A stretch of DNA of 64,000 nt from positions 372,001 through 436,000 of the forward strand of contig LYSZ01000001.1 in assembly GCA_001657385.1 (NCBI GenBank). Direction: 5' to 3'. The position numbers and the translations under genes are program-made. Origin of the DNA: Parvularcula sp. BBD 1991-13. GTDB taxonomy: Bacteria; Pseudomonadota; Alphaproteobacteria; Caulobacterales; Parvularculaceae. Below the pieces are notes generated by a model. It was not told the origin of the DNA and did not search any database. It saw only the letters and a program-made list of their open reading frames with translations. Positions 50,220-52,792 of this stretch are shown piece after piece. How positions within the stretch are numbered: the first letter of the stretch is position 1; every line of letters starts with the position of its first letter.

Positions 50220-51032
50220 ATGGCGTTTTCCCTGAAAAATCTGGGCGGTAAGAAGGGCGTGGAGGGCGAGGTGATCGCCTCCGAGAAGCCGAAAATGACG
50301 CCGGCCGAGGAGGCTTGGGACCTCGCCAAGACCGTTCTGATCGCCGTCGCCATCGCTCTTGTGCTGCGCATCGTGATTTTTCAGCCCTTCAACATCCCGT
50401 CCGGCTCAATGAAGCCGAACCTCCTGATCGGCGATTTTCTCATCGTCTCCAAGCCAACCTTCGGCTATTCGCGCGCCTCCCTGGTTTATCCGCTGACCCG
50501 CCTGCCGCTGGACGGGCGTATTTTCTCCGGCGAGCCCGAGCGCGGCGACGTCGTCGTTTTCAAGAACCGCAAGCACGGCAATCGCGACTACATCAAGCGC
50601 GTCGTCGGCCTGCCGGGCGACGAGATCCACATGATCGGCGGGCGCCTGCATATCAACGGCAAGCCGGTTCAAAAAGACCTCGTCGGCATGGTCGACGGCG
50701 TCTGCGACGGCCGTCCGGGGCCGACCTACGTCGAAACGATGGAGAACGGCGTGTCCTACCGGGTGCAGGAGTGCTTCGGCGACGAAGGGCCGCTCGACAA
50801 CAAGGGGCCGTATGTGGTGCCGGCCGAGCACTATTTCATGATGGGCGACAACCGCGACCAGTCGCAGGACAGCCGCGTCATCTCCCAGGTCGGCTACGTG
50901 CACAAGGACGACATCGTCGGCCGCGCCGAACGGCTTTTCTTCTCCGTGGACGGAGCGAAAGCGAAATTCTGGCAGGTCTGGAACTGGCCGTTCGCCGTTC
51001 GCTATGGGCGCCTGCTCGATCCGGTTGAATGA
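50220..51032 (+). CDS. lepB: Signal peptidase I
   Basis: 270-residue inner-membrane protease that cuts signal peptides. One N-terminal membrane helix (about 34-54), catalytic Ser63 in NIPSGSMKPNL, catalytic Lys126 in RDYIKRVVGLPGD, and the C-terminal box MGDNRDQSQDSR. There is a single anchor, not two as in E. coli. Its last bases overlap the rnc start by 4 (ATGA), so lepB-rnc are coupled, a widely conserved pair that is also followed by era. Confidence 0.96.
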   Translation: MAFSLKNLGGKKGVEGEVIASEKPKMTPAEEAWDLAKTVLIAVAIALVLRIVIFQPFNIPSGSMKPNLLIGDFLIVSKPTFGYSRASLVYPLTRLPLDGRIFSGEPERGDVVVFKNRKHGNRDYIKRVVGLPGDEIHMIGGRLHINGKPVQKDLVGMVDGVCDGRPGPTYVETMENGVSYRVQECFGDEGPLDNKGPYVVPAEHYFMMGDNRDQSQDSRVISQVGYVHKDDIVGRAERLFFSVDGAKAKFWQVWNWPFAVRYGRLLDPVE

Positions 51033-51739
51033 GCGATCACGATTTTAGCGAGCTTGAAACGCGGCTGGGGCGAGGGTTCGACAACCCGTCCCTGCTTTTG
51101 CGCGCGCTGACCCATTCCAGCCTGTCCGGCGGCGCCGGCGAGGGCGACGCGCCGGTGCGCGATCTTGAGCGGCTGGAGTTTCTGGGCGACCGCGTCCTCG
51201 GCCTTCTGACGGCGGAGGAATTGTTCCGGCGTTATCCCGACTTCGAGGAGGGCGATCTCGCCCCGCGGCTGAACGCGCTGGTGCGCAAGGAGACCTGCGC
51301 CAAGGCCGCGCTCTACTTTGGCGTCGACCGGTTCATTCTGATGTCGGAATGGGAGGAGGGCGCGGGCGGCCGGAAAAAGACGGCGATCCTCGGCGACGTC
51401 ATGGAGGCGCTGCTGGGCGCGTTGTTCATCGATGGCGGCCTGGACGCGGCGCGCCGCGTTTACGAGCGGTACTGGACGCCGAACCTGGAAGCGCTCGCCC
51501 GCGTTCATCGCGATCCGAAAACCGAATTGCAGGAATGGAGCCAGCGCCGCAAGCTGGGCGCTCCTGACTACGAGGTTATCGACGCCGAGGGCCCGGCTCA
51601 CGCGCCCGCCTTTACGGTGGAGGCGCGAATCAAGGGCTTTCGGCCCGCCGCAGGGGAAGGGCGGTCCAAGCGGGCCGCGCAGATGGCCGCCGCGCGCGCG
51701 TTTCTGGTGCGCGAGAACATATGGACCGACAATGACTGA
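51029..51739 (+). CDS. rnc: Ribonuclease III
   Basis: 236-residue dsRNA-specific endonuclease for rRNA and mRNA processing. The signature ERLEFLGDRVLGL with catalytic Glu/Asp, then GDVMEALLGALFIDGG with the second acidic pair, and a C-terminal dsRNA-binding domain (PKTELQEWSQRR, AEGRSKRAAQMAAARAFL). The start overlaps the lepB stop. Its final codons overlap the old start of era (51732), as expected for rnc-era coupling; but that era start now belongs to a broken duplicate. Confidence 0.95.
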   Translation: MSDHDFSELETRLGRGFDNPSLLLRALTHSSLSGGAGEGDAPVRDLERLEFLGDRVLGLLTAEELFRRYPDFEEGDLAPRLNALVRKETCAKAALYFGVDRFILMSEWEEGAGGRKKTAILGDVMEALLGALFIDGGLDAARRVYERYWTPNLEALARVHRDPKTELQEWSQRRKLGAPDYEVIDAEGPAHAPAFTVEARIKGFRPAAGEGRSKRAAQMAAARAFLVRENIWTDND

Positions 51740-51854
51740 CGCGCCCGCCCCGACCGGGTCTTCACGAGAGACGCGCTGCGCCGTCATCGCCGTGATCGGC
51801 GCGCCCCCCGACTGCGAAGGCAGTCAATTTATCCGGCATTGGGGGGCGTTCTGA
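51732..51854 (+). pseudogene. Broken duplicate of the era 5' end (40-codon leader frame)
   Basis: The ATG at 51732 overlaps rnc by 8 bases and opens a 40-codon frame: MTDAPAPTGSSRETRCAVIA... which contains the same TRCAVIAVIGAP as intact era, but runs into PDCEGSQFIRHWGAF and stops at TGA 51852-51854, overlapping the era ATG as TGATG. So the old translation start of era now makes a short peptide ended next to the new start. Translational coupling from rnc to era may therefore pass through this minicistron. It is read as a remnant or leader, not a functional protein. Assembly error is the main alternative. Confidence 0.75.
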
Positions 51855-51903
51855 TGGAGGTTTCACAGGCGACGCGCTGCGCCGTCATCGCCGTGATCGG
51901 CGC
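51761..51903. repeat. Direct duplication with internal hairpin at era start
   Basis: Bases 51770-51802 and 51871-51903 are identical over 33 bp; with a short mismatched stretch the likeness extends left to 51761 and 51862 (about 42 bp), offset 101 bp. Between the copies is a GC hairpin: CGCCCCCC (51802-51809) pairs with GGGGGGCG (51841-51848), and inside it ACTGC-GAAG-GCAGT (51811-51824). It looks like a small palindromic element with flanking duplication. Confidence 0.88.
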
Positions 51904-52792
51904 CCCTAATGCCGGCAAGTCGACGCTGGTGAACGCGGCGGTGGGGGCGAAAGTCTCGATCGTCACGCAGAAGGTTCAGACCACGCGCGCGCGGGTGCGC
52001 GGCATCGCCGTCGAGGGGGACGCGCAGCTTGTGTTCATCGACACGCCCGGCATTTTCGCGCCGCGCCGCCGGCTCGACCGGGCGATGGTCGCCGCCGCGT
52101 GGGACGGGCTCGACGGCGCCGACGTCACGGTGATGGTGATCGACGCGCCTGCTTATCTCGCCGGACAGACCGAGCGCGGCGCGGCGGGCAAGTCGCGCGC
52201 CGACGCGGACCGTATTCTCGAGGGCCTGCAACGGGCCGGCCGCAAGGCGATCCTGGCGCTGAACAAGATCGATCAACTGGACCGGCCGAAGCTTCTGGGA
52301 CTGGCGCAGGCGCTGAACGAGACCGGGATTTTCATGGATATCTTCATGATCTCGGCGGAGAAGGGATACGGCCTCGCCGACCTGAAGGCCCGTCTCGTCG
52401 AGGCCGCGCCGCCCGGCCCCTGGCTCTATCCGGAAGACCAGCTCTCGGATATCTCCGACAGGCTCATGGCCGCCGAGGTCACCCGCGAAAAGCTTTTCCT
52501 GCGCCTGCACGAGGAGCTTCCCTACGACTCCACGGTGGAGACCGACGACTGGAAGGAAACGAAGTCCGGCGTGCGGATCGAGCAGACGATCTATGTCGCG
52601 CGCGAGGGGCAGAAGGGCATCGTCCTGGGGCGGAACGGTCAGACGCTGAAGGCGATCGGCAAGGCTGCGCGTGAGGATCTGACCGAGATTCTGGGCGTTC
52701 CCGCGCATCTTTTCCTGCATGTGAAGGTCCGCGCGGGATGGGCGGACGAGGCCGCGCGGCTCCGGAATATCGGCCTCGACGCGGTGGAGTGA
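51854..52792 (+). CDS. era: GTPase Era
   Basis: 312-residue GTPase binding 16S rRNA and the 30S subunit during ribosome maturation. G1 GAPNAGKST at residues 17-24, G3 DTPG, G4 NKID, and a C-terminal KH domain with GIVLGRNGQTLKAIGKAAR. The N-terminus is altered: the present ATG gives MEVSQATRCAVIAV, where the first copy upstream reads SSRETRCAVIAV. The G-run of the hairpin arm (GGGGGG, 7 bases before the ATG) may act as ribosome site, and the leader stop overlaps the ATG. All GTPase motifs are intact, so function is expected. Confidence 0.94.
   Translation: MEVSQATRCAVIAVIGAPNAGKSTLVNAAVGAKVSIVTQKVQTTRARVRGIAVEGDAQLVFIDTPGIFAPRRRLDRAMVAAAWDGLDGADVTVMVIDAPAYLAGQTERGAAGKSRADADRILEGLQRAGRKAILALNKIDQLDRPKLLGLAQALNETGIFMDIFMISAEKGYGLADLKARLVEAAPPGPWLYPEDQLSDISDRLMAAEVTREKLFLRLHEELPYDSTVETDDWKETKSGVRIEQTIYVAREGQKGIVLGRNGQTLKAIGKAAREDLTEILGVPAHLFLHVKVRAGWADEAARLRNIGLDAVE

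Follow-up and report, generated by a model that had tools for sequence, protein, structure and literature searches.

The window, i.e. the whole stretch of 64,000 nucleotides analysed here, belongs to a genome of 4.24 Mb and carries, downstream of a gene encoding signal peptidase I (NCBIfam TIGR02227), the genes rnc and era (Table 1). At this locus, the 5' coding segment of era is present twice. The two copies are identical across 33 nucleotides (51770-51802 and 51871-51903), and the full repeat extends to 45 nucleotides at 91% identity with a start-to-start spacing of 101. Between the copies lies a hairpin enclosed by two complementary 8-nucleotide arms, CGCCCCCC and GGGGGGCG (51841-51848), the latter forming the end of a G-rich tail situated 6-21 nucleotides upstream of the era start. 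The first part of this tail, CCGGCATTGGGG (51833-51844), is complementary, with one G.U pair, to the P-loop codons of era. An ATG overlapping the end of rnc opens a reading frame of 40 codons, the TGA of which ends on the first base of the era ATG (TGATG, a 1-nucleotide overlap). The encoded peptide begins like Era (RCAVIAVIGAP), then diverges, crosses the hairpin and stops at the era ATG. The 33-base identity, the palindromes between the copies and the 40-codon frame had all been pointed out in a preliminary description of this DNA and each was recovered here.

The leader peptide has no match in NCBIfam. A search of the whole window against Rfam at gathering scores returned a single tRNA and nothing at the rnc-era junction, and the hairpin core has no second match with up to two mismatches within the 64-kb window. 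An exact direct repeat of 33 bp at a single place, together with the recurrence of this layout in six further genomes of the genus, is more than chance would give.

Table 1 Sequence features at the junction of rnc and era in the window
Feature	Position	Strand	Basis or remark
rnc (RNase III)	51029..51739	+	NCBIfam TIGR02191, E 1.6e-62
Last 8 nucleotides of rnc, ATGACTGA	51732..51739	+	Overlap the leader start ATG at 51732
Bridging leader ORF, 40 codons, peptide MTDAPAPTGSSRETRCAVIAVIGAPPDCEGSQFIRHWGAF	51732..51854	+	Remnant era start read across hairpin and tail
Copy 1 of the duplicated era 5' coding segment	51761..51805	+	Repeat comparison
Left arm, CGCCCCCC	51802..51809	+	Complement of 51841-51848
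Hairpin GACTGC-GAAG-GCAGTC	51810..51825	+	Core of dispersed repeat; compensatory stem variants in relatives
G-rich tail, CCGGCATTGGGGGGCG	51833..51848	+	Complements P-loop codons and left arm
Present era, 312 aa	51854..52792	+	NCBIfam TIGR00436, NF000908
Copy 2 of the duplicated segment, within era	51862..51906	+	Repeat comparison
P-loop codons (A-P-N-A-G region), partner of the tail	51903..51915	+	Complementarity

Recurrence and anatomy of the module

Judged by Era, most of the closest named relatives are labelled Marinicaulis or Parvularculaceae. Using an era criterion of E <= 1e-60, the gene was found in 26 of the 28 genomes of the genus and was not found in G009 and G027. The genus set comprises 27 resolved rnc-era junctions, namely those of the 26 genomes plus the second era locus of G006; the second era locus of G001 (L091), the junction of which did not resolve, was left out. 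Thirteen junctions are plain, with an overlap of 8 nucleotides in 12 of them and of 1 nucleotide in G017. Seven contain the module seen in the window (the window's own genome, G006, G026, G021, G010, G003 and G004) and the other seven contain different inserts, mostly repeat-like by eye and gene-sized in G025. In G025 (L095, the same locus as L011), the rnc stop and the era start are 555 nucleotides apart, with a 171-codon ORF between them that looks like an HNH endonuclease by eye. The G006 assembly has two rnc-era loci (L006 and L090), of which only one contains the module, the other being plain; the bin may comprise two strains. The other genera of the family contributed 31 loci: 24 are plain (G063 and G065 being classed by eye, and G077 because a GTG in the era frame overlaps its rnc stop), six have inserts, and G076 was left out as rnc was not found. 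Two of these 30 resolved loci, G064 and G066 of genus g6, contain the module, each with two hairpin units. A screen of 80 named loci detected a start duplication of at least 22/30 nucleotides in four (L098, L105, L115 and L117); L099 scored 21/30 and L102 was too short for scoring. All six come from genomes already in the count.

The arrangement is genuine and recurrent. Many of the relatives are metagenome assemblies, as an assembly artefact might lead one to expect, but the same layout occurs in G003, a single 3.47-Mb contig, and in other assemblies, with copies that have diverged, and we give this explanation practically no credence. The preliminary description saw here a palindromic element that had entered the start of era once, duplicating its target. 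A repeat family is indeed involved and the start is duplicated. There is more to it, however, than a one-off simple target duplication: six further species of the genus, and two of another genus, have nearly the same module at these codons or close to them. That description also considered a layout common to all relatives, which would count against it; the relatives are mixed, the 7/27 genus loci that share the layout being scattered on the tree.

The order of elements in the module is a start of era running up to about the P-loop codons, a hairpin, a linker of 10-12 nucleotides, a G-rich tail and a second start of era. The linker measures 10 nucleotides in 6/7 Marinicaulis modules and 12 nucleotides in the four units of G064 and G066. 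The hairpin consensus across modules is GAYYGC-GAAG-GCRRTC, with a G.U pair in one stem (first unit of G064). Stem changes are compensated (GACTGC/GCAGTC in the window and GATCGC/GCGATC in G064 versus GACCGC/GCGGTC elsewhere) and the loop GAAG is kept. The tail follows the consensus GCRTTNGG, shifted by one in G004. Two additional 45-nucleotide repeat units are present in G026 and an additional half hairpin in G021, and in G064 the first unit is located at the rnc stop, its start being a GTG in the leader frame. With 33 identical nucleotides on either side of a hairpin, one could imagine ribosomes leaving copy 1 and landing on the matching codons of copy 2, yielding one fused Era. We consider such bypassing extremely unlikely: the second era copy has its own in-frame start in 9/9 module genomes, the G021 copies are alike at only 21/30 positions, and the jump would bring no gain.

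The hairpin core is dispersed in the relatives, its exact 18-nucleotide form being present in 18/28 genomes of the genus, 19/62 of the family and 20/398 of the order. A looser 16-nucleotide form occurs in 34/62 family genomes, with 50 matches in G009, 21 in G026, 14 in G006, 6 in G021, 2 in the window's genome and one each in G003, G004 and G010. Outside era we count 46 repeat copies (48 minus two, at L232, that belong to the era of G066). A second hairpin is present in 40 of them, and the unit, sometimes in tandem, is 42-46 nucleotides long in the 37 copies listed. The longest exact word common to both flanks of a non-era copy is 15 nucleotides (a tandem repeat unit) versus 33 in the window, in a weak test that misses short or diverged duplications, including those of the G006 and G021 era modules. 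Two-hairpin units form head-to-tail arrays with a period of 45-46 bp at L079, L084 and L088, and also in G009, G016 and G026. The dispersed copies at L051 and L059 are bordered by 10-12 bp of inverted sequence, an arrangement that insertion into the tip of a palindrome would give. Around position 1500 of L048 (G015:C2:21899), the repeat has its first hairpin, as read by eye, in frame near the start of a gene (MPDDASPDREGGQDENKADYRDTLFLPQTDFPMRAG) which we take to be that of isoleucyl-tRNA synthetase; this hairpin resembles an in-frame insertion of the Rickettsia palindromic element (RPE) type.

On a four-gene tree, the scattered module requires 7 changes by the Fitch method, or one gain and 13 losses. 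Losses may be easy, since a deletion running from one direct repeat to the other would bring back a plain start. Copy 1 and copy 2 agree at 29/30 positions in the window and in G004; in G006, G021 and G003, copy 1 is closer to the start of another genome than to its own copy 2. Horizontal transfer of whole era genes is not favoured: six of the seven genus module genomes keep their neighbours between the Rnc+Era and the four-gene trees, in a comparison where the Rnc+Era data are a subset of the four-gene data, some supports are low and G000 changes place.

The scatter on the tree would also suit a purely mutational origin, in which the inverted tail arose, and continues to be corrected, by template switching at the GC-rich palindrome of the P-loop, with no selection at the RNA level, possibly through independent events in each lineage. 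Copies within a genome are more alike than copies across genomes (permutation P 0.002) and some dispersed copies have inverted flanks (mean 4.6 bp versus 3.5 bp for mispaired flanks, 37 copies), both of which point the same way. However, the constant hairpin-to-tail spacing and the partly shared linker letters within each genus suggest common descent, and template switching leaves unexplained the reading-frame bias described below. We judge this origin to be quite unlikely. The genome-specific tail in itself fits either compensatory change or repeated inverted copying, and the module may result either from one old gain with many losses or from repeated gain.

Bridging reading frames across inserts

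We defined a bridging ORF as one running from an ATG that overlaps rnc through the insert and ending between -5 and +4 nucleotides from a start of era. Such an ORF is present in 15 of the 20 insert-bearing junctions of the family (14 in the genus, six in other genera). It overlaps the rnc stop by 8 nucleotides in 14/15 cases and by 11 nucleotides in G064. At the other end, leader and era truly overlap in 12 of the 15, the leaders of G019, G003 and G012 ending 3, 5 and 0 nucleotides ahead of the era start, respectively. The era start of G016 was picked among several ATGs for its ATGA overlap, and without G016 the count is 14/19. G066 was counted as bridged to the start of its first era copy, from which two more ATGA-linked ORFs reach era; its complete chain consists of rnc, ORFs of 37, 30 and 28 aa, and era, each leader being joined to the next start by ATGA.

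When the insert letters and the phase of the insert lengths are randomised, 2.6 of the 20 junctions are expected to be bridged (P 2e-11, with independence assumed; P values that include modules overstate independence because modules share ancestry). For the 12 non-module junctions, including the first of G066, the comparison is 7 bridged versus 1.3 expected (P 3e-5), and with one module kept per genus it is 9/14 versus 1.7 (P 8e-7). Within the genus only and at fixed insert lengths, 12/14 junctions are bridged. The unbridged inserts are those of G022, G025, G031, G079 and G081, and several Caulobacter-type loci with long rnc-era gaps were also seen to have no bridging ORF. Thus, coupling is not indispensable. 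In the Caulobacter records L146 and L155, where other repeat-like sequence fills a gap of ~149 nucleotides and a bridging ORF was not seen, rnc-era coupling appears to be dispensable.

In many gamma-proteobacteria, rnc and era are translationally coupled via overlapping codons and reinitiation, according to the passages on this gene pair in PMC10582724. The corresponding passages of PMC10666635 give -4, -1 and -8 as the commonest cistron overlaps and report that, in six tested E. coli and Haloferax pairs, a spacing of ~20-38 nucleotides nearly abolished coupling. The bridged inserts separate the rnc stop and the era start by 87-180 nucleotides and, therefore, era would be expected to uncouple from rnc without a bridge. 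The leader minicistron had been proposed in the preliminary description to keep the two genes coupled; the frequency of bridging among insert-bearing junctions speaks for this proposal, the coupling itself being read from sequence.

Complementarity between the tail and the P-loop codons

In each module genome, the tail complements the GAPNA codons of era from that same genome. In the window, GGCATTGGGG faces CCCCTAATGCC with one G.U pair; the equivalent matches are TGCGTTTGG with CCAAACGCA in G010, GCGTTGGGAGC with GCTCCCAACGC in G003, GCGTTCGGC with GCCGAACGC in G066 and GCGTTTGGCGCG with CGCGCCAAACGC in G064. The wobble base of the Pro codon pairs with the tail in 9/9 taxa through four pair types (G-C, G.U, U-A and C-G), and so does that of the Asn codon, through three (A-U, G-C and G.U). 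Fixed-register pair counts were used in place of duplex energies, which alone are indecisive because P-loops also pair with foreign tails. In this register, a genome's own tail fits its own P-loop better than permuted tails do (P 0.0014-0.0016, nine taxa); with the seven genus members alone the signal is weak (P 0.042). Out of 26 foreign P-loops, 18 fit the tail of G004 better than its own does, six those of G006 and G026, one those of G021 and G003, and none those of G000 and G010. The segment 51833-51848, regarded at first as the inverted arm of the element, does complement the left arm, but, judged by its pairing, this tail 'palindrome' also consists for the most part of era's P-loop codons in inverted copy, tracking the wobble bases of each genome.

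In the window, the predicted duplex energies are -23.1 kcal/mol for the tail with the left copy and -31.0 kcal/mol for the tail with the P-loop. Since the left copy is also able to pair with the tail, two stems compete on paper, and a strand predicted to pair with two alternative partners would be an attenuator-like feature. Predicted pairs between the upstream 32 nucleotides and the P-loop average 9.7 in the nine modules, 5.1 in 13 plain loci and 2.5 in seven other inserts; five plain loci likewise show 10-12 such pairs and, for three of the nine modules (G026, G004 and G066), 14-29% of upstream shuffles pair with the P-loop equally well. Modules bury the era start only a little more (mean unpaired 0.34 versus 0.44).

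The module might also be a neutral scar, i.e. a tolerated repeat insertion with start duplication, in which era initiates alone at the second ATG with the G-rich tail acting as its Shine-Dalgarno sequence, and the leader is a harmless leftover. The existence of sister genomes without the module, the 5/20 unbridged inserts, the invasion of the rnc-era junction by other repeats and the modest burial of the era start are all consistent with this. But bridging lies far above the randomised expectation, non-module inserts included, the wobble positions of tail and P-loop covary, and the hairpin stems are compensated. We regard such a scar as possible, if rather unlikely.

Proposed mechanism and relation to known systems

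The long bridged gaps and the predicted stem around the era start lead us to interpret the module as a bridge for coupling that also has a shielding stem. A copy of the palindromic repeat would have been fixed inside the first era codons, accompanied by a second era start and by the P-loop codons copied in reverse orientation, and the broken first era copy would persist as a short leader cistron. Ribosomes leaving rnc would restart at the overlapping ATG and read the leader through the hairpin and the tail; termination of the leader at the era start would lead to a restart there, keeping era coupled to rnc across the insert. The tail would pair with P-loop codons roughly 30-60 nucleotides downstream, enclosing the era start. 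This stem would disfavour free era initiation, and translation of the leader would open the start. We favour, with modest confidence, this combination of a bridging minicistron that keeps era translation coupled to rnc and a tail/P-loop stem that shields the start until a ribosome arrives. The coupling bridge is better supported than the shielding stem. From sequence comparison, we infer that the leader is translated, that reinitiation takes place, that the predicted stem exists in the cell, and that the match is maintained by selection and not by a mutation mechanism.

The stacked stems could instead be a processing or autoregulatory site, cut by RNase III and adjusting era relative to rnc. 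The relevant passages of PMC10582724 and PMC8708148 describe autoregulation of the E. coli rnc-era mRNA by RNase III via a 5'-UTR stem-loop, as well as cleavage by this enzyme between cistrons of other mRNAs, and the position of the hairpin is conserved. However, the perfect stems of the window are short (6 and 8 bp), the tail/P-loop stem comprises 12-13 bp with one G.U pair, and cleavage would leave the preservation of frame unexplained, making this a very improbable role. A doubtful and more tentative elaboration is that the module represents a duplicable start cassette (hairpin, anti-P-loop strand, start codon and first codons) working as a bistable translational switch. With the tail paired to the broken upstream copy, the start would be free; with the tail paired to the live P-loop, it would be shut, and Era would be made only behind a ribosome arriving from rnc. 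Such a cassette could form tandem arrays, as in G066, and still preserve coupling, because each unit ends in ATGA.

The coupling bridge has the same kinds of overlap as termination-reinitiation coupling (ATGA, TGATG and ATGNNTGA; 8 nucleotides between rnc and leader, mostly 4 or 1 between leader and era), and the same gene pair is coupled in gamma-proteobacteria too (relevant passages of PMC10582724 and PMC10666635). It differs in that an extra cistron made from a broken gene start bridges an inserted repeat, and in that G066 chains three leader cistrons ahead of era. Similarly to REP/MITE-type repeats, the element is short, dispersed, hairpin-forming and sometimes tandem (unit of about 45 bp), but in era the second hairpin is replaced by inverted host codons and the host start is duplicated. 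SXT-type integrative elements replace the 5' end of their target gene prfC, which, like era, acquires a new 5' end next to the disrupted original; unlike these, the era insert, at only 101 bp, could not accommodate an integrase or cargo. As with RPEs, a palindromic repeat is tolerated inside a conserved gene; whereas RPEs, as presented in the relevant passages of PMC10969869, are about 150 bp and fused in frame, here Era restarts downstream and the insert stays outside the protein. The layout at the era start was not described in the titles or abstract openings returned by our literature searches, although it may still be in print.

Different repeats have entered the same overlap, shared by two ribosome-biogenesis genes, and most of the inserts observed are bridged, which provides a natural test of the strength of selection on translational coupling. 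The junction also points to a route by which a repeat may break a highly conserved gene start, the start being rebuilt beside the break and a leader cistron being left. Such a leader cistron, derived from a broken start, is a possible origin of regulatory leader peptides.
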